Source: Luteimonas sp. FCS-9 (GTDB lineage Bacteria; Pseudomonadota; Gammaproteobacteria; Xanthomonadales; Xanthomonadaceae). From it: a stretch of 64,000 nt of DNA. The stretch covers positions 1 through 64,000 of the forward strand of contig NZ_LASZ01000012.1 of NCBI RefSeq assembly GCF_001014645.1, read 5' to 3'. Numbering within the stretch: position 1 is the stretch's first letter; each line of letters begins with the position of its first letter. A program made the translations under genes and the position numbers. Below, piece by piece: positions 430-22,387 of this stretch. The notes beneath the pieces are model-generated. The model was not told the DNA's origin and made no database searches. It saw only the letters and a list, made by a program, of their open reading frames with translations.

Positions 430-494
430 GCCCGCCGGGTACCGCGCCGAGTCGCGGCCCGACATCCGCTTGGTCGTCGCGACACCCGGCGGGC
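430..494. repeat. 65-bp palindromic dispersed element, copy 1
   Basis: The element begins GCCCGCCGGGT and ends with its exact reverse complement ACCCGGCGGGC. The inside is imperfectly self-complementary. A second copy lies at 9711-9775 with 58 of 65 identical bases. Two of the differences are compensatory (positions 4/62 and 20/46 of the element), keeping base pairing. It does not resemble the REPIN family of this window. It lies in the gap between the IS end and the DUF2383 gene. Confidence 0.8.
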
Positions 495-535
495 GCTGGA
501 CACGTCGCTGCAATCTGCCCGAAGAGCCACCGAAG

Positions 536-574
536 CCCTCCCCCGCCTGCGGGGGAGGGTTGGGTGGGGGCCGG
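536..574 (+). repeat. GC-palindrome repeat with tail
   Basis: A 24-bp near-palindrome (CCCTCCCCCGC, CT, GCGGGGGAGGG) at 536-559 is followed by the tail TTGGGTGGGGGCCGG. Related copies are at 329-354 (half), 1377-1398, 22351-22387 (inverted) and 22454-22472. All are intergenic. With 329-354, 430-494 and the terminator at 625-652, this accounts for most of the gene-free stretch 278-693. Confidence 0.75.
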
Positions 575-621
575 CCGACCACGCGGAAGAACACGCGCGT
601 CTACGCGCCTGACGTTGACCC

Positions 622-652
622 AAAAAAGACCCCGGCTTGCGCCGGGGTCTTT
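622..652 (-). terminator. Rho-independent terminator of the DUF2383 gene
   Basis: A perfect 12-bp stem AAAGACCCCGGC / GCCGGGGTCTTT (625-636 and 641-652) with a TTGC loop. On the minus strand it is followed by a run of T (627-622), the direction expected for the gene ending at 694. It may also work in the other direction. Confidence 0.9.
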
Positions 653-693
653 GTGTCACTTGATCGTGGCCGCGCTCGCAGCCGTGCATCGGA

Positions 694-1152
694 TCAGCTG
701 CGATCCTTGATGTCCTTCAGCGCATGCTTGCGGGCGCGCAGTTCATCGTGGGTCGCGCGGACCTCCGGCAGCAGGCGGGTGACGACATCACGGGCGGCCG
801 GCGGCGTGTCGGCGTCGCGGGCGGCCTCGTCGAAGGCCTCGAGCAGGCGGTCTTCCGACTCTTCGAGCTCGGCGACGTAGCCGTATTCCTTGTCGCCGAA
901 CGCGGCGCGGACCTTGCCGTAGAACTGCTGCAGGCTGCCGACCATGGTGCCGGAGGTCTCCGGCTTGCCGCCGACGGCCTGGACCGCGGCGCTCAGGTCG
1001 GTGACCAGCTGCGACTTGTGCGCGGCGATGCGCGAGAACAAGGTCTTGAGCTCGGCGTCGTCGACCTTCTGCGCGGCTTCCTCGTAAAAATCCTTGCCGT
1101 CGCGGGCGATGGCGATGAGGTCGTTGAGCGTGTGCGCGGACTTGTTGGTCAT
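694..1152 (-). CDS. PA2169-type four-helix-bundle protein (DUF2383)
   Basis: 152 residues, almost wholly helical, beginning MTNKSAHTLNDLIAIARDGK. The pattern of a short N-terminal helix, ferritin-like helices with acidic residues (FYEEAA, ELKTLFSRIAAHKSQLV, YVAELEESEDRLLEAF) and a C-terminal HDELRARKHALKD matches the DUF2383/PA2169 family, which is often induced by stress and has no settled function. The ATG at 1152 has GGAG upstream; a longer in-frame reading to 1338 is rejected because it lacks family similarity. It stands alone, with a strong terminator 40 bases beyond its stop. Confidence 0.85.
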   Translation of the reverse strand: MTNKSAHTLNDLIAIARDGKDFYEEAAQKVDDAELKTLFSRIAAHKSQLVTDLSAAVQAVGGKPETSGTMVGSLQQFYGKVRAAFGDKEYGYVAELEESEDRLLEAFDEAARDADTPPAARDVVTRLLPEVRATHDELRARKHALKDIKDRS

Positions 1153-1376
1153 CTTGCTCTCCAGTGCGAATGGGGGTTGGCGCGGCGCGATCGCGTGGTC
1201 GCGGTGCGCATCGTCCAGGCGGGGCGTCGTCGGACGCCGTCGTGGATCGATAGGCGCCACCCTATCGACGGTGCCGGCAAGGACACGTGACGCGTGGGCG
1301 ACGATCGTGTGAATGGGGGCGTCGCCCCCGTCGCCCAACGCGACCCCGCATCGTCCCGGCCTGCCCGCTCGAGCGC

Positions 1377-1398
1377 CCCTCCCCGCATGCGGGGAGGG
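1377..1398. repeat. 22-bp perfect GC palindrome
   Basis: CCCTCCCCGCA / TGCGGGGAGGG is a perfect palindrome, a shorter relative of the 24-bp repeats at 536 and 22364. It lies 22 bases beyond the stop of the S9 peptidase gene and could form a hairpin at that 3' end, but no T-run follows. Confidence 0.7.
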
Positions 1399-1419
1399 CG
1401 ACGTGACGCGATGGGCGCC

Positions 1420-3468
1420 TCAGCGCGCGGCGTCCGCCTTCGGCAGGGCGTAGTCGATCTCGTAGGCAGGAGGCTCGCCGTCGGGGCCGGTCAGGTAGTG
1501 GGTCATCCACTGCACCAGCCGCAGCGAGTAGTCGTAGCGGGAGGCGCCGCGGCTGTTGCCGTGGCCCTCGCCGGGGTACAGCACCAGCCGCACCGGGGCC
1601 TGGCCGGCCAGCTTGAGGTAGCGGTACAGCATGTAGGACTGCATCACCGGCACGCGGGGGTCGGCTTCGCCGTGCAGGATCAGCGTCGGCGTGCGCGACT
1701 TCTGCGCGTGCGTGATCGGGCTGGCCTGGCGGTACATCTCCGGGCTCTCCCACGGCCAGGTCTGCATATGCACCTGGTACTGCTCGCGCGGGATGTCGCC
1801 GGTGGTGACCAGGCTGGCCTGGTCGGAGATGCCGACGAACATCACCGAGGCGGCGAAGCGCTCGCTGTAGTACGTGGCGCCCCAGGCGCTGGCGTAGCCG
1901 CCGTAGGAGCCGCCGGTGATGCCGACCCGGTCGCGGTCCACCAGGCCGATCTCGACCAGGTGGTCCACGCCATCGACGAGGTCGTCGAACTCCTCCCTGC
2001 CCGGCCGGCCGTGGTCGAGCTTGGAGAACGCCACGCCACGGCCGGTGCTGGCGCGGTAGTTGGGGAAGAACGACGCGAAGCCCTGCGCGGCCAGCGTCTG
2101 CGCCGGCTGCGCGTAGCTGTTGAGCCAGCCGTTGACGTTGTGCGATTCCGGTCCGCCGTGCACGACCACCACCAGCGGCACCCGCGCGTTGCCGCGGCGT
2201 TCGAGCGGATGCACCAGCAGGCCCTCGAGTTCGAGGCCGTCGCGCGCGGTATAGCGCACGATCTCCTGGCGGGCCAGGCGCACGTCGGCGAGCCACGGAT
2301 TGCTGTCGGTCAGCCGCCGCGGCTCGGAGCTGCCGGCGGCCAGGTGGAAGACCTCGGAAGGGTGCGCCGGCGTGCTGCCGACCAGCGCGACGTCGCCGTT
2401 GCGCGCCACGCTCAGGCCCATGTGCACGGGGCCTGCGGCCGGCAGCAGCGTGCGCTGGCCGCTGCCGTCGACACCGATCTCGGCCAGGCGGCTCTGCACG
2501 CCTTCCTGGCTCAGGAACACCAGCGTCGCCGCATCGCGCCAGCCCACGTGCCAGACGTGGCCTTCGAGGCCGGGCAGCAGGTCGCGTTGCACGCCGCCGT
2601 CCTTGCCGACGACGGTCAGCCGGCCTTCGCTCGGATCGTTGGCGTCGGCGGCCGAGACGATCGCCAGGTGCCCGCCATCCGGGCTCCAGGCGATCTCGCC
2701 GAGCTTGCCGGGGTTGTCGACGCGACCCAGTTCGCGGCCGTCCACCGAATAGATGCGCACGCGCGCATCGACCATCATGTCGTCGGTGAGCTGACGCGGG
2801 GCCACGACCACCGCCAGGCGGTCGCCGGCCGGGCTCCAGCGCACGGTGCGCACGCTGCCTTCGATCGCCAGCCTGCGCGGCGGCGCGCTGCCGCCCAGTT
2901 CGGCGATCCACAGTTCCACCGGACGCCAGTCCTCCTCGTAGACCTTCTGCGAGAAGCCCTGCTCGCGCAGTCGCTTGCGGGCCTCGTCCTCGAGCCGCGC
3001 GGCCAGCAGCGCGGCGCGGCGGCCATCGGGCGAAAGGTCGAAGCTGGCGATGTCGCCGGCCAGGTGCGCGACCGCCGTCGACTCGCCGCCGCGCAGCGGG
3101 ATCGTGTACAGACGGCGCGTCGCATCGCCCTCGCGCTTGGTCAGGTAGGCGATCGCCTGGCCGTCGGGCAGCCAGCGCGGCGCGGTCACGTCGACCTTGC
3201 CGGTCACAAAGCCGCGGTCGTTGCCGGCGCGGTCCACCACGTGCAGTTCGCCGCGGGCCGGGCCGTCCGGGTCGGTGCCCAGCGTGCGCGGCACCGACAG
3301 CACGTAGGCCACCTCGGCGCCATCGGGGCTGATCGCCGCCTGGCTCGCCGTGCGCGTGCGCGCCACCTGTTCCAGCGTCATGCCGGCGCCCTGGCCGGTG
3401 GCGGCCGCGACCGGCGCTCCGGTCGCCAGCACCAGCGCACAGACGATCCCTACCATCCAACGTCGCAT
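1420..3468 (-). CDS. Secreted/periplasmic S9 family peptidase (prolyl oligopeptidase type)
   Basis: 682 residues. An N-terminal signal peptide (about 1-24, MRRWMVGIVCALVLATG...AAA) precedes a beta-propeller region of WD40/PD40-like repeats (SPDGAEV, SPDGRRA, SPAGDRL, SPDGGHL; about 40-410) and an alpha/beta-hydrolase domain (about 430-660). The catalytic triad is visible: Ser521 in GGSYGG, Asp603 in HGEADPRVP and His636 in GEGHGNS. It should cleave peptides or acyl-peptides outside the cytoplasm. The ATG at 3468 was chosen because it opens the signal peptide; longer in-frame starts add non-conserved sequence. Substrate is not predictable. No operon partner: the neighbour upstream is divergent. 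Confidence 0.93.
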   Translation of the reverse strand: MRRWMVGIVCALVLATGAPVAAATGQGAGMTLEQVARTRTASQAAISPDGAEVAYVLSVPRTLGTDPDGPARGELHVVDRAGNDRGFVTGKVDVTAPRWLPDGQAIAYLTKREGDATRRLYTIPLRGGESTAVAHLAGDIASFDLSPDGRRAALLAARLEDEARKRLREQGFSQKVYEEDWRPVELWIAELGGSAPPRRLAIEGSVRTVRWSPAGDRLAVVVAPRQLTDDMMVDARVRIYSVDGRELGRVDNPGKLGEIAWSPDGGHLAIVSAADANDPSEGRLTVVGKDGGVQRDLLPGLEGHVWHVGWRDAATLVFLSQEGVQSRLAEIGVDGSGQRTLLPAAGPVHMGLSVARNGDVALVGSTPAHPSEVFHLAAGSSEPRRLTDSNPWLADVRLARQEIVRYTARDGLELEGLLVHPLERRGNARVPLVVVVHGGPESHNVNGWLNSYAQPAQTLAAQGFASFFPNYRASTGRGVAFSKLDHGRPGREEFDDLVDGVDHLVEIGLVDRDRVGITGGSYGGYASAWGATYYSERFAASVMFVGISDQASLVTTGDIPREQYQVHMQTWPWESPEMYRQASPITHAQKSRTPTLILHGEADPRVPVMQSYMLYRYLKLAGQAPVRLVLYPGEGHGNSRGASRYDYSLRLVQWMTHYLTGPDGEPPAYEIDYALPKADAAR

Positions 3469-3625
3469 TCGGATTCCCCGGAAAAATGACAGTCCGCGAC
3501 TTTGACCGGGTTGTGGAGCGCACGCAACGCGCAACGCAGCGATGCACGACGCGTCGGTTCGAAAGGCGCATTCAGGTCTACACTCACAGTCGAGCTGCAG
3601 CCCCGTCCCTGCTGTCCGGCTGCGA

Positions 3626-3961
3626 ATGTCGATGCACACGATCCAGGCCGTCGCGGCGACGATGCGACCGGAGTGTGCGATGCGCGGCATGCGATTCGAA
3701 CGAAGCCTGGAGGCCACCAACCGCGAACTGGCCTGGCGCTGTCGCGTCTTCGGCGTCGATCCCCGGCACCTGGACCGCTGCGATGCGTTGCCCCGGCGCA
3801 CGCTCGAACAGGTCCATGCGCTGATGCTGCTGTCGGTGGCGCAGGTGGGCCGCGCGATGCGCGACCAGGGCGCGGAGGCCACGCTGGCCGGCATCGCGCG
3901 CGTCGCGGCGCGGGTGGAGATCGTCCAGACCTACCTGCCGATGCCGGCGCGGCGCGACTAG
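3626..3961 (+). CDS. Hypothetical protein
   Basis: A small helical protein of up to 111 residues (start MSMHTIQAV at 3626; ATGs at 3629, 3659 and 3680 are alternatives, and MRGMRFERSLEATNRELAWR at 3680 may be the true start). It contains FGVDPRHLDRCDALPRRTLEQVHALMLLSVAQ and ends YLPMPARRD. I do not recognise a family and see no signal peptide or membrane segment. Its stop codon TAG interlocks with the TAG of the opposite gene (shared CTAG at 3958-3961). It lies divergent to the peptidase gene. Codon use resembles its neighbours, supporting a real gene. Confidence 0.6.
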   Translation: MSMHTIQAVAATMRPECAMRGMRFERSLEATNRELAWRCRVFGVDPRHLDRCDALPRRTLEQVHALMLLSVAQVGRAMRDQGAEATLAGIARVAARVEIVQTYLPMPARRD

Positions 3962-4764
3962 CCCGGGCGGCGCCCGCCGAGCGCGCGATGGCGCACGATG
4001 CGCGCCGCGATCCGCGGAAACACCTCGGGCAGCAGCTCACGCACCGTCGCCGGCACCCGCGCCACCAGCGCCTCGGCATCCAGCGCAGGCGCTACGCCGC
4101 GCCACGCGAACGCGACCCGATTGCTCATCTTCGGCTCGTCGACCACCAGCACCTGCGCCTCGCCGAATGCCTGCCGCAGCCGCGCGACGTGCGTCTCGGG
4201 ATTGCGCACGTACAGGTTGCAGGCCAGCACGCCGCCGGCGGCCAGCGCGTCGCGGCAGTCGTCGTAGAACGCCTGGCTCGACAGCGCGGCGGGAATGCCG
4301 TGCTCGTCGTAGCCGTCGACCAGCAGCACGTCGAAGCGGCCCGTGCGTGCGGCGACGAACCGCGCGCCGTCGTCGACGACGACCTCGAGCCGCGCGTCGT
4401 CGTCCGGCACGCCGAACTCCCCGCGCAGCGCGACCACGTGCGGGTTGTTCTCGACCACCTCGATGCGCGTGCCCGGCAGGTGGCGATGGGCGAACTTCGC
4501 CTGCGAACCGCCGCCCAGCCCGATCATGCCCAGCATCGCGGGCGCCGGCCGCCACAGCAGCGTGGCGAACATCGTGCGCGTGTAGTCGACCAGCAGGCGG
4601 TCGGGATCGCCGCTGACCATGCGGCTCTGCGTCTGCCGCCGCACGAACTGCAGCGACGTGAACCCCTCGTGCCGGCGCACGTACGGCCGCTGCGGCGCAC
4701 CGCGCCAACGCGCCAGCCAGCGATCCCACCACCCGGGCCGCACCGCCCCGTTCCCCTGCCCCAT
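3958..4764 (-). CDS. Spermidine-synthase-like methyltransferase-fold protein
   Basis: 268 residues with a Rossmann-type S-adenosylmethionine/decarboxy-SAM binding core: GLGGGSQAKF (motif I, about residue 83), an acidic residue at the end of strand 2 (RIEVVENNP), DDGARFV and LLVDGYD (motif IV). This is the fold of the spermidine synthase family (SpeE-like), but the N-terminal beta domain of true SpeE is replaced by a basic stretch, so aminopropyl transfer is not certain. Ends by a 4-base overlap with the convergent hypothetical gene and lies 8 bases after the 5'-nucleotidase gene, with which it is probably co-transcribed. Confidence 0.75.
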   Translation of the reverse strand: MGQGNGAVRPGWWDRWLARWRGAPQRPYVRRHEGFTSLQFVRRQTQSRMVSGDPDRLLVDYTRTMFATLLWRPAPAMLGMIGLGGGSQAKFAHRHLPGTRIEVVENNPHVVALRGEFGVPDDDARLEVVVDDGARFVAARTGRFDVLLVDGYDEHGIPAALSSQAFYDDCRDALAAGGVLACNLYVRNPETHVARLRQAFGEAQVLVVDEPKMSNRVAFAWRGVAPALDAEALVARVPATVRELLPEVFPRIAARIVRHRALGGRRPG

Positions 4765-4772
4765 GCCGGCGC

Positions 4773-5678
4773 TCAGCGGTTGGACCAGCCGTGCGGCACG
4801 TGCCCGGCGGCGACGTGCGGCCGCGCCGAATCGATGTTGTGCTGCGAGTCGTCGAAGAAGATGTCCGCCCCGAACGCATCCAGGAACGGCCCCTTCGGCC
4901 GTCCGCCCAGGAACAGCGCCTCGTCCAGGCGCACGCCCCAGGCGCGCAGCGTCCGGATGACGCGCTCGTGCGCGGGCGCCGAGCGCGCGGTGACCAGCGC
5001 GGTGCGGATCGGCGCGTCCTTGCCGGCCGGGTACGCCGCCTGCAGGTCGTGCAGCGCGGCCAGGAAGCCGCGGAACGGCCCGCCGGTCATCTCCTCGCGC
5101 GCGCGTTCGCGTTCGTGCTTGTGGAACGCGTCCAGCCCGCCTTCCTGCGACAGCCGCTCGCCCTCGTCGCCGAAGATCACCGCATCGCCGTCGAAGGCGA
5201 TACGCAACTGGTCGTTGCGGTGCGCCGGCGCACGCGCCGGGATGATCGTCGCCGCCGCGATGCCGTTCTCCAGCGCCCGGCGCACCGAATCGGGATTGGC
5301 CGACAGGAACAGCTGCGTGCCGAACGGCTTGATGTACGGCCAGGTCGGCTCGCCCGAGGTGAACGTCGCGCGGATGATGCCCAGTCCGTGGTGCTGGATC
5401 GAGTTGAAGATCCGCAGCCCCGTATCGGCGGAGTTGCGCGACAGCAGGATCACCTCCACGCGCGGCGCATCGGCCGGCGCGTCGACGTTCAGCGCCAGCA
5501 GCTTGCGCACCAGCGGGAACGCGATGCCCGGCTCCAGCACGTCGTCCTCGTGCGCCCGCTGGTGCTCGGCGTAGGCGTCAATGCCGTCGCTCTCGAACAG
5601 CGCGTGGCTGTCCTCCAGGTCGAACAGCGCCCGCGAGGAGATCGCGACGGTCAGCGTGGGAACGGTGGTGTCGGGCAT
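4773..5678 (-). CDS. Cytosolic 5'-nucleotidase (cN-I type)
   Basis: 301 residues starting MPDTTVPTLTVAISSRALFD. The N-terminus with AISSRALFDLEDSHALFE, the block EVILLSRNSADTGLRIFNS, LFLSANPDSVRRALENGIAAATI and the late DGDAVIFGDEGE and FFDDSQHNIDSA motifs match the 5_nucleotid (Pfam PF06189) family, homologous to mammalian cN-I. It should dephosphorylate nucleoside 5'-monophosphates in the cytoplasm by a HAD-like aspartyl-phosphate mechanism. The ATG at 5678 opens the conserved region directly; the longer upstream frame is non-conserved. First gene of a likely two-gene unit with the spermidine-synthase-like gene. Confidence 0.88.
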   Translation of the reverse strand: MPDTTVPTLTVAISSRALFDLEDSHALFESDGIDAYAEHQRAHEDDVLEPGIAFPLVRKLLALNVDAPADAPRVEVILLSRNSADTGLRIFNSIQHHGLGIIRATFTSGEPTWPYIKPFGTQLFLSANPDSVRRALENGIAAATIIPARAPAHRNDQLRIAFDGDAVIFGDEGERLSQEGGLDAFHKHERERAREEMTGGPFRGFLAALHDLQAAYPAGKDAPIRTALVTARSAPAHERVIRTLRAWGVRLDEALFLGGRPKGPFLDAFGADIFFDDSQHNIDSARPHVAAGHVPHGWSNR

Positions 5679-6005
5679 GGAAGGATTTCGCGGGCTTAGG
5701 GGGACGACGCTTCTCCGCCCACAGGGAAGATCGGAACGGGACGGCGGCCGGCGCCGCCGCACCGCATGCATCGCGGGCTGACCGCGAATTATGCCAGCCC
5801 TGCGCGCCGCATCGGCCTCCGACGCCGCCTGTCCGTGGCCCATGGCGCGCCCGTTTGCCGCGCCGTTCCAGGGCCAGGGGAATCGATCCAGCCGTTGCGA
5901 TACGGATGCGTCGACTTCGCGCTTAACCGCGCCTTCAATGGCCCGGGACGGCGCGACAACCATCGCGCTGGCACGATTGGCCCCCCGAACGCGAGCATCC
6001 GGCCC
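5679..6005. other. Gene-free divergent intergenic region (327 bases)
   Basis: Lies between the divergently transcribed 5'-nucleotidase gene and a lipoprotein gene, so both promoters should be here. I see a GC hairpin (GGCGGC / GCCGCC near 5742-5757) and one A+T-rich spot (GCGAATTATGCC near 5785) that could contain a -10 box reading left, but no convincing -35. No gene, repeat family member or operator is recognised. Confidence 0.5.
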
Positions 6006-6443
6006 ATGTCCTGGAACATCGCCGTCACCGTCGCCTTCGCGATGGCCGTTTGCGCCTGCACGTCCACCGGCACACCGACGACCGGGGGCGGCGTCCCTGC
6101 GTCCGGCGTGACGGTGCTGACCGCGCGCCACGACCCGGACGCAGTTGCGTTGACGGCCCAACGCAAGGGCATCCTGGCGATCGAACGCGGCTGCATCGTC
6201 GTGCGCACGGGCGAGGTGAGTTCTCGCGTGGTGCTGCCACGGACGTTCGCGTTGTGGACCGAGGGCGATCGCGCGATGGGGATCCACGACACCACCCACG
6301 ACCGACGCTTCCGGTTCGGGACGCCGCTCGTGCTGGGCGGCGGGCAGGTCGAAGCGCTGGGGCCGGAGGTCGTGGATGCCCGCGCCGGCGCGGCTTGCGG
6401 ACCGCCGTACTTCGTCGTCGGCGACGTGCAGTCACCGGGATAG
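6006..6443 (+). CDS. Putative lipoprotein of unknown function
   Basis: 145 residues. The start MSWNIAVTVAFAMAVCACTS shows a hydrophobic segment and a lipobox-like MAVC/VCAC (Cys16 or Cys18), suggesting export and lipid attachment. The mature part is Thr/Gly-rich near the N-terminus, then contains RGCIVVRTGEVSSRVVLPRTFALW and a C-terminal CGPPYFVVGD; two further cysteines (about 63 and 133) may form a disulfide. No family recognised. The ATG at 6006 was chosen because upstream in-frame sequence is non-conserved and precedes the signal peptide. A hairpin at 6460-6484 follows the stop. Confidence 0.65.
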   Translation: MSWNIAVTVAFAMAVCACTSTGTPTTGGGVPASGVTVLTARHDPDAVALTAQRKGILAIERGCIVVRTGEVSSRVVLPRTFALWTEGDRAMGIHDTTHDRRFRFGTPLVLGGGQVEALGPEVVDARAGAACGPPYFVVGDVQSPG

Positions 6444-6755
6444 CCCGTACCGTCGGTGCGCGCCGGCGTTGCGATCGCCGGCGCTGCACTGCGTCATGAA
6501 TACAGGGCGCAGACGGCGCTGGACACGCGCAACCGTGACTGTCTTCGCATTCCCGGCATCTGCCGTTGACAACGTTGTCTTTCCGGCCGCACATGGCGGC
6601 CGGCATCCCTGTCCCGACCCCGTACCGATTTCCGCTGCCCCCTGCGCCGCAGGAGGCGGCGGAAAGGGCATCCGGTCGGCGCTGCGCACCACGGGCGGAC
6701 CTCCGCCCGCGGCCAGGCGCCGGCTTCACTCGGCATCGGAAAGGGAGACTTCGTC
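6444..6755 (+). other. Intergenic region before chitinase (312 bases)
   Basis: Contains a 9-bp GC stem (6460-6468 with 6476-6484, loop TTGCGAT) just after the lipoprotein gene, which may end its transcript although no T-run follows; then a TTGACA hexamer overlapped by a 12-bp perfect palindrome at 6568-6579 (listed separately); then about 170 bases of G+C-rich leader before the chitinase start. No gene seen. Confidence 0.6.
6566..6580 (+). promoter_or_regulatory. LacI-type operator overlapping a TTGACA box upstream of the chitinase gene
   Basis: TGACAACGTTGTCT at 6567-6580 contains the perfect 12-bp palindrome GACAACGTTGTC with a central CG, the hallmark of LacI-family operators. It matches, with one mismatch at the last base, the TGACARCGYTGTCA pattern that I recall for N-acetylglucosamine (NagR-type) regulators in xanthomonads. 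TTGACA at 6566-6571 is a consensus -35 box. The -10 is not clear. The site is 176 bases before the chitinase ATG. Regulation by a GlcNAc-responsive LacI repressor is inference. Confidence 0.6.
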
Positions 6756-8813
<2,058 letters not shown>

Positions 8814-8851
8814 AGCCGCGTCGGGCGGGTCCAGGGAAGGATCCGCCGGCG

Positions 8852-8878
8852 CGCATGGGCGCGACGGGCGCCCATGCG
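8852..8878. terminator. Strong hairpin between convergent chitinase and nadK genes
   Basis: An 11-bp perfect stem CGCATGGGCGC / GCGCCCATGCG (8852-8862, 8868-8878) with a 5-base loop, placed between two convergent stop codons. There is no T-run on either side, so it may act as an RNA 3'-end stabiliser or an atypical terminator. Confidence 0.55.
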
Positions 8879-8880
8879 GC

Positions 8881-9648
8881 TCACACCACGAACTGCTCGC
8901 TGAGGATGCGTTCCTCGAGATTGTGCTCGGGATCGAACAGCAGGGTCACGGTGCGTTCGGATTCGCGCACCGTGACCTGGACGACGTCGCGGACCTCGTG
9001 CGAGTCGGCGGTCGCGCTGACCGGACGCTTGTAGGAATCGAGCACGCGGAAGCGAACCTCGGTCTCGGCGCGCAGGATGGCGCCGCGCCAGCGGCGCGGG
9101 CGGAACGGGGCGATCGGCGTCAGCGCGACGATGCCCGCGCCCAGCGGCAGGATCGGGCCGTGCGCGGAGAAGTTATAGGCCGTGCTGCCGGCGGCGGTGG
9201 AGAGGATGACGCCGTCGCCGACGAGCTCCTCCAGGCGCGTGACGCCGTTGAGCTCGATGCGCATGTGCGCGGCCTGGCGGGTCTGGCGCAGCAGCGAGAC
9301 CTCGTTGTACGCGAGCGAGGAAACGGTGGCGCCCGATTCGGTCTCGGCCAGCATCTCCAGCGGATGCAGCACCGCCGGCTGGGCGGCGGCGATGCGCGCC
9401 AGCAGGTCGCCCTGCCGATGCTGGTTCATCAGGAAGCCCACGGTGCCCAGCTTCATGCCGTAGACCGGCTTGCCGAGGTGGCCGTGGCGATGCAGCGTCT
9501 GCAGCATGAAGCCGTCGCCGCCCAGCGGCACCAGCACGTCGGCATCCGCCGGATCGCACTGGCCATGCTCGGCGCCGAGCACGCGCAGCGCCTCCTGGGC
9601 GTCGGCGGTCTGGCTGGCGACGAAGGCGATGCGGGGCGTTGCGGTCAT
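8881..9648 (-). CDS. nadK: NAD kinase
   Basis: 255 residues. Phosphorylates NAD+ to NADP+ in the cytoplasm. The conserved GGDG (43-46, in [10 protein letters not shown]), GxxGFL-type [11 protein letters not shown], the YNEVSL block and the [14 protein letters not shown] motif are all present, with length typical of the shorter proteobacterial NadK type. Start [12 protein letters not shown] is followed directly by the first beta strand, so the start is well placed. It is convergent with the chitinase gene and is separated by 285 bases, including a 65-bp palindromic element, from the next gene. Confidence 0.95.
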
Positions 9649-9710
9649 CGGCGGGCCGGTACGGGAACGTCGGCGCGCAGCTTAGCGCAGGCGGGACGGC
9701 TTCCGCAGGC

Positions 9711-9775
9711 GCCTGCCGGGTACCGCGCCCAGTCGCGGCCCGATATCCGCTTGGTGGTCACGGCACCCGGCAGGC
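9711..9775. repeat. 65-bp palindromic dispersed element, copy 2
   Basis: Begins GCCTGCCGGGT and ends ACCCGGCAGGC, exact reverse complements. It is aligned without gaps to copy 1 at 430-494 (58/65 identical). The C-to-T change at position 4 is matched by G-to-A at position 62, and G-to-C at 20 by C-to-G at 46. It lies in the 285-base gap between nadK and the glutamate dehydrogenase gene, both on the minus strand. Confidence 0.8.
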
Positions 9776-9933
9776 GCTGGACACGGATGCGACGACGGGC
9801 CGGTGCACCTTCTCAACCACGCCGCGCACGTTTCGCGTGGCGGGTTCGACAAGCAGGCCTCCCGAACGCAGACCGCACCTGCAACGGACGCGCGCTCGAA
9901 CAGGGAGGACGCCCGTGCGCCCTCCCCGTGCCT

Positions 9934-22192: not shown

Positions 22193-22350
22193 GTGTTTCA
22201 GCGCTCGCCGGATGCGCGACGGTCCTTCGTGATGCGCTCGCGCATCCTCCCCTCTGCGCGAGAGCGCCACTGCTTCGTACGCCGTCGCAGCGTGAGCAGG
22301 CCACGACGCGCTTACATGCAGGCGTGACCAAGAACTCGCCGCGAGCGTCG

Positions 22351-22387
22351 GCCCCCACCCCAACCCTCCCCCGCATGCGGGGGAGGG
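22351..22387 (-). repeat. GC-palindrome repeat, inverted orientation
   Basis: The perfect 24-bp palindrome CCCTCCCCCGCA / TGCGGGGGAGGG at 22364-22387 is preceded by GCCCCCACCCCAA, the complement of the tail seen after the copies at 329 and 536. It is the same repeat family in the other orientation. Confidence 0.75.

Follow-up and report, generated by a model that had tools for sequence, protein, structure and literature searches.

What kind of element is a palindrome that recurs with its base pairs changed and its pairing intact, and in which form, RNA or DNA, is it kept? The question is raised by the first 64,000 nucleotides of contig NZ_LASZ01000012.1 of Luteimonas sp. FCS-9 (forward strand; hereafter, the window), in which a 65-bp palindromic element stands at 430-494 and again at 9711-9775. 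An earlier, sequence-only reading had proposed a selected hairpin or a mobile unit. The analysis presented here indicates that the element belongs to a real, strongly selected hairpin family, with a layout like that of repetitive extragenic palindromes (REPs) and bacterial interspersed mosaic elements (BIMEs) and with a different recognised part. The family is apparently undescribed: the open-access literature gave no description of the element or of its core strings, a description elsewhere being possible. Tentatively, with a probability of roughly 0.45, we propose that the folded strand acts as a single-stranded DNA hairpin whose core would be bound by a trans-acting protein, spreading the element in a REP-like manner.

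Two copies in the window, many in the genome

Aligned without gaps, the two window copies are identical at 58 of 65 positions and differ at positions 4, 20, 34, 46, 50, 53 and 62. In each of them the terminal 11 bases are exact inverted repeats, and both compensatory changes claimed earlier (C-G to T-A at 4/62, G-C to C-G at 20/46) were recovered. Chance is excluded as the source of the resemblance (E = 1.1e-24, copy against copy, in the search of the own genome) and, since similarity amounts to 87% over 418-504 and 9699-9785, the repeat extends beyond these 65 bp. Model R1, derived from other genomes and containing no row from this one, matches the window at exactly these two copies, whose parts are as follows:

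430-494, folded strand minus: hairpin of copy 1 (R1 match at 431-494, minus, 65.4 bits, E = 1.3e-13)
430-450: outer stem of copy 1, first arm, 450 pairing with 474 (pairing map and model alignment)
451-474, minus: conserved 24-nt core of copy 1, plus-strand GTCGCGGCCCGACATCCGCTTGGT (pattern match with one mismatch; core columns over 327 hairpins)
475-494: outer stem of copy 1, second arm (pairing map and model alignment)
9711-9775, folded strand minus: hairpin of copy 2 (R1 match at 9712-9775, minus, 71.1 bits, E = 5.1e-15)
9711-9731: outer stem of copy 2, first arm, 9731 pairing with 9755 (pairing map)
9732-9755, minus: conserved 24-nt core of copy 2, plus-strand GTCGCGGCCCGATATCCGCTTGGT (exact pattern match)
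9756-9775: outer stem of copy 2, second arm (pairing map)
9776-9795: flank beginning CGCTGGACACGGATGCGACG, common to many copies of the own genome (printed copies and own-genome consensus)

The core of copy 1, GTCGCGGCCCGACATCCGCTTGGT, is one change away from the common Luteimonas core. The flank beginning CGCTGGACACGGATGCGACG belongs to the copy lineage and is not conserved across the family.

Further copies are plentiful. In the own genome, of 3,945,173 bases in 55 contigs, 72 pieces matched with E values of up to 10; merging at E up to 1e-3 left 57, from which three short ones (below 60 bits) were dropped, leaving 54 full copies. Many of these lie in same-sense arrays, such as four on one contig (C6) spaced 116 bp apart. 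Counted over the 45 gapless copies, with the nine gapped ones excluded, pair 4/62 is T-A in 36, C-G in eight and broken in one, and pair 20/46 is C-G in 35, G-C in nine and broken in one, so that the co-variation first seen between two copies persists, each pair being intact in 44 of 45. A reading of the repeat as peptide-coding was set aside, nine of the 54 rows having gaps.

A family defined by its core

The window element is one member of a multi-genus family, and what this family conserves is a 24-nt core and not the ends of the stem. A search with copy 2 matched 13 of 61 genomes (the own genome and 60 relatives), all of the same genus. In one of these relatives, Luteimonas aestuarii, inverted hairpin pairs carry two different stem types around an identical core. 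Scans with a core pattern found the element in at least 12 of 52 genomes of the genus, with one hit for the reversed control pattern and some two-mismatch matches possibly due to chance; this figure is a lower bound, since the pattern misses the GCTC...TCGC core variant by three mismatches. At the level of the family eight of 297 genomes matched (the control gave four single hits, in other genomes), at that of the order seven of 398, and in a second genus 21 of 25 (control 0). This second genus includes Thermomonas, because an identical hslV-hslU sequence occurs in records of T. flagellata and T. haemolytica. A scan of named genomes returned at least 104 stretches, from Luteimonas, Lysobacter, Thermomonas, Arenimonas oryziterrae and Pseudohaliea rubra, and among the matches listed were also a Halioglobus metagenome-assembled genome (MAG), other Halieaceae, two Burkholderiaceae MAGs (Burkholderiales) and Zeimonas arvi. 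Viral contigs gave no match with two patterns, and two close relatives (G008 and G011) none to the Luteimonas-type core, the other core types not having been searched there. A class-wide census with R1 found the own genome alone among 369, a result of little weight given that no more than 14 candidates were scored in each genome, out of as many as thousands. The stem sequence is different in almost every copy of G318 and of G065/G116. On a Luteimonas endophytica contig, two near-identical hairpin pairs stand about 5.7 kb apart.

The element is thus about 64 nt long, a nearly fixed core of 24 nt inside a 20-bp outer stem of free sequence. Read along the folded strand, the outer stem is followed by A-CCAA, an inner helix (GC and two further bases), an eight-base loop, the other side of the inner helix (two bases and GC), GAC-U and the second arm, so that an invariant A-T pair closes the core, within which an internal loop (CCAA / GAC) leads to a short inner helix and an apical loop. 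Over 75 non-redundant hairpins, 13 columns of the core region are invariant and five more nearly so. The inner helix varies, on the plus strand, among GCGG/CCGC, GGCG/CGCC, GCCG/CGGC and GCTC/TCGC, the last, which is the commonest, placing G across from A and A across from G on the folded strand. At inner positions 28/39 and 29/38, non-standard pairs occur in 51 of 75 hairpins each, mostly G.A and A.G in the printed sequences. The AAGCGG of the folded strand may resemble primosome assembly sites, a point on which the literature searched gave nothing.

Covariation

That the hairpin is under selection, as had been suggested from two copies, is borne out by covariation far beyond what two copies could show. 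The main alignment comprises 75 non-redundant sequences in 64 gap-free columns, drawn from 327 hairpins by allowing at most two core mismatches, at least 16 of 20 Watson-Crick pairs and an arm identity of up to 72%. Its covariation score is 0.952 against 0.184 after shuffling, a value that none of 500 shuffles reached, and versions slid out of register score 0.13-0.18; cells changed on both sides number 695 against 202.8 shuffled. A count of the pairs in which both sides have changed is of no discriminating value (21, as against 20.6 when shuffled). In the outer helix 97.5% of the cells are paired, a figure biased upward by the pairing criterion itself. In a sample selected by the core only, and hence unbiased, at least 16 of 20 pairs are formed in 112 of 124 distinct matches, and several of the 12 others look like one-base shifts.

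Two hand-picked Thermomonas sets, in each of which the gene identities were confirmed at one locus, point the same way. In the hslV-hslU gap, eight sequences with the folded strand in gene sense (reverse-sense hairpins were left out) are 98.9% paired, with nine pairs changed on both sides and two unpaired cells; in the lpxA-lpxB gap, six of eight loci are 100% paired, with 12 pairs changed on both sides.

Which strand is kept foldable

Folding is stronger on the minus strand at both window sites (z of -3.89 against -2.56 on the plus strand for copy 1, and of -5.01 against -3.62 for copy 2), and the same bias runs through the family. Among the stem mismatches of 186 hairpins, 12 weak matches having been dropped, A.C on the plus strand occurs 242 times and G.T 52 times; A.C on plus corresponds to G.U or G.T on minus. 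The ratio is 44:4 in the 75 non-redundant hairpins, 57 of which also have the lower predicted energy on the minus strand. Is this asymmetry a consequence of transcription? The non-redundant means of A.C to G.T are 21.6:4.7 at sites whose genes transcribe the folded strand, 26.5:4.2 at those whose genes transcribe the other, 24.9:6.0 at convergent and 8.2:1.4 at divergent sites, and single hairpins between codirectional genes show no significant preference (24 in the folded sense, 17 in the other). It is thus a single defined strand, the minus strand in both window copies, that is kept foldable, whichever way the neighbouring genes run.

These data bear on two other explanations. Templated repair yields paired changes at imperfect inverted repeats, and neutral palindromes might in this way be kept perfect without selection. 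Such repair would not be expected to leave, on one strand, ten A.C mismatches for every G.T, or to preserve a 24-nt core some of whose invariant positions are unpaired, and we consider this account hardly credible. A structured RNA is quite conceivable, if short of probable: the hairpin would lie in messenger RNA (mRNA), between cistrons or at 3' ends, or in a small RNA, and its core would be bound by a protein or a ligand. The anatomy is RNA-like and covaries, the G.A and A.G oppositions at 28/39 and 29/38 are of a kind whose stacking is common in RNA, the hslV-hslU copies are mostly in the transcribed sense, and few clusters lie between divergent genes (12 of 136 resolved). Against it, the wobble asymmetry is unchanged where the folded strand is not transcribed, both hairpins of a leuB-asd cluster stand in the other sense, no Rfam family matches at its gathering score, and no conserved flank is available for a shared promoter, no flank column of the 75 hairpins exceeding 0.6 bits and G or C being commonest next to the stem. 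Since the asymmetry does not depend on local transcription, we infer that what is maintained is something other than just a stretch of the local mRNA, and a reading as an mRNA element only was lowered by the orientation tests taken together (24 against 17, wobble 44:4, transcription-independent asymmetry). The wobble evidence speaks against an ordinary mRNA element and for a hairpin of single-stranded DNA, which would be the most economical alternative to local mRNA, an independent RNA coming next.

Genomic setting and spread

The 235 hairpin clusters divide into 62 convergent, 62 codirectional and 12 divergent ones, 37 within predicted open reading frames (ORFs) and 62 unresolved. Among 93 pairs of neighbouring hairpins no more than 450 bp apart, 58 are head-to-head (+,-), 20 are (-,-), eight (-,+) and seven (+,+). 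The layout, extragenic and in head-to-head pairs or tandem arrays, is like that of REP and BIME elements. The earlier suggestion of a mobile unit stands in so far as 54 near-identical dispersed Luteimonas copies and the head-to-head pairs are concerned; a clean insertion site or a target duplication did not emerge. At the locus of copy 2 the hairpin is absent from three close relatives with flanks 92-93% identical, and at two further own-genome sites the relatives have no hairpin or, in G011, a decayed relic. The relic (L399) lies at the site corresponding to 170.8 kb on contig C5 of the own genome.

The favouring of convergent 3' ends (62 of 136 resolved clusters) and the long inverted repeats would also suit an intrinsic transcription terminator, or the terminal repeat of a miniature inverted-repeat transposable element (MITE) moved by a DDE transposase. 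Nevertheless, TTTT follows the stem in one of 325 hairpins on the folded strand and in four on the other, for which reason a terminator was rejected; the copies of one genome differ in their stems, unlike the terminal repeats of one element, and three loci compared with relatives revealed no target duplication, their borders not being clean. We regard both forms of this explanation as improbable.

Could a gene between hairpins be the mobiliser? A gene between two Arenimonas hairpin clusters (L168) was considered and rejected. The reading frame that shows coding bias yields a short protein, which we take to be bactofilin-like. Of ten ORFs at this locus, several of which are wrong frames, none gave a Pfam family. 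On an HGW-Gammaproteobacteria-14 contig (L263), similar same-sense hairpins at 3207 and 4462 flank leuB, before asd.

Relation to known systems

The element had been held to be unrelated to the GTAGGAG family of REPINs (paired REPs) in the window, and the transposase search agrees. The only Y1 transposase found in the own genome sits among GTAGGAGCG repeats, and none of eight Y1 loci holds the hairpin. These eight Y1_Tnp matches are spread over five of 11 genomes examined, while the other six carry the hairpin and have no match. The own-genome match (contig C1, 260862-264044), surrounded by seven GTAGGAGCG-type repeats, is likely the REP-associated tyrosine transposase (RAYT) that serves the window's other REPIN family. 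The GTAG or GTGG tetranucleotide at the foot of a REP hairpin is absent from the printed copies. A link to GTAG and RAYT was rejected on these grounds, and an ordinary GTAG-class REP or REPIN moved by a RAYT, for all that the extragenic position, head-to-head pairs, clusters and single-lineage bursts resemble it, is very improbable in view of the missing foot (in the printed copies as in the family-wide flanks), the stem of at least 20 bp and the distribution of Y1 genes.

With the REP, BIME and REPIN systems and their TnpA-REP (RAYT) enzymes, the family shares extragenic palindromes, head-to-head dimers, clusters, a patchy distribution with bursts in single lineages, and a one-strand hairpin as the recognised form. 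It differs from them in lacking the foot and an adjoining Y1 gene, in its long stem, and in conserving the apical core instead of the foot. REP classes with GTAG or CGTC ends have been described (PMC3733652, PMC6006769), with stems of 5-13 bp in the GTAG families and 8-9 bp in the CGTC families (PMC3733652). The CGTC-tagged repeats resemble the present family in that head-to-head dimers predominate and no transposase is linked to them; unlike it, they have loops of 4-5 nt, a CGTC end besides the short stems, and occur mostly in alphaproteobacteria (PMC3733652). The stem-loop families of Cozzuto et al. 2008 (PMC2267715) are likewise intergenic repeated stem-loops obtained from genome scans; Xanthomonas and Xylella go unmentioned in the main text. 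Like the structured RNA motifs of Rfam, the element has a conserved core within covarying stems; unlike them, it falls below every gathering score in the window and in nine family loci. With release 15, the window gave only a tRNA and the nine loci (E up to 5) nothing at gathering score; below threshold, some hairpins are overlapped by animal microRNA hairpin models (best mir-1420, E = 0.00086, 34 bits against a cut-off of 70), which we read as generic matches to a long hairpin.

A proposed protein-recognised DNA hairpin

In the single-stranded DNA reading, the folded strand, when exposed (for example, during replication), would fold as single-stranded DNA, and its core would be bound by a putative trans-acting protein, plausibly a hairpin-recognising nuclease or transposase. 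This protein may have spread the element as head-to-head pairs or tandem units, akin to the spread of REPs. Where the family is active, as in the own genome and Luteimonas aestuarii, the copies are near-identical; in Thermomonas, old copies remain at fixed sites, their core conserved and their stem altered by compensatory changes. This pattern suggests that some resident copies also serve the host. A broader formulation, which we offer as doubtful, is that the hairpin represents a previously unnamed element class of Gamma- and Betaproteobacteria. Its members would be single-stranded DNA hairpins recognised by a protein, with a 24-nt core that barely varies and a stem selected for its structure alone; a putative trans-acting enzyme would have amplified them in some lineages, and in others they would have been domesticated at fixed sites in operons (hslV-hslU, lpxA-lpxB).

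Several observations weigh against this proposal. No trans-acting gene was found, and Y1 transposases do not track the element in the 11 genomes, more diverged HUH proteins not having been searched. G.U in RNA and G.T in DNA are both tolerated, and therefore the wobble asymmetry cannot separate the two. In the Thermomonas hslV-hslU gap, the folded strand of eight hairpins is the transcribed one, as it would be in an mRNA element, and a repeat that was selfish and nothing else would not be expected to persist vertically while undergoing compensatory change. The insertion borders at the three loci are not clean, with no target duplication recognised, and gene orientations come from a simple ORF predictor that left 99 of 235 clusters unresolved or within a predicted ORF.

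If the proposal is true, extragenic palindromes are not all of the GTAG/RAYT kind, and a second system would read an apical core while leaving the stem free to change. That one 24-nt core recurs within many stems, in several genera and both at dispersed and at fixed sites, makes it an unusually clean substrate for finding the binding protein. Moreover, setting wobble against gene orientation is a test of general use for distinguishing covarying hairpins kept as mRNA from those kept in some other form.

Neighbourhood of the window copies

Copy 2 lies between a NAD-kinase gene and a NAD-glutamate dehydrogenase gene, both on the minus strand, and copy 1 on the lower-coordinate side of a minus-strand DUF2383 gene. 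A frame truncated at the contig start (1-277) stops shortly before copy 1; its product may resemble a transposase C-terminus, but Pfam gave no match at E up to 1. Finally, 536-577 and 22346-22387 are inverted copies, 86% complementary, of a repeat of the form CCCTCCCCCGC...GCGGGGGAGGGTTGGGTGGGGGCC.
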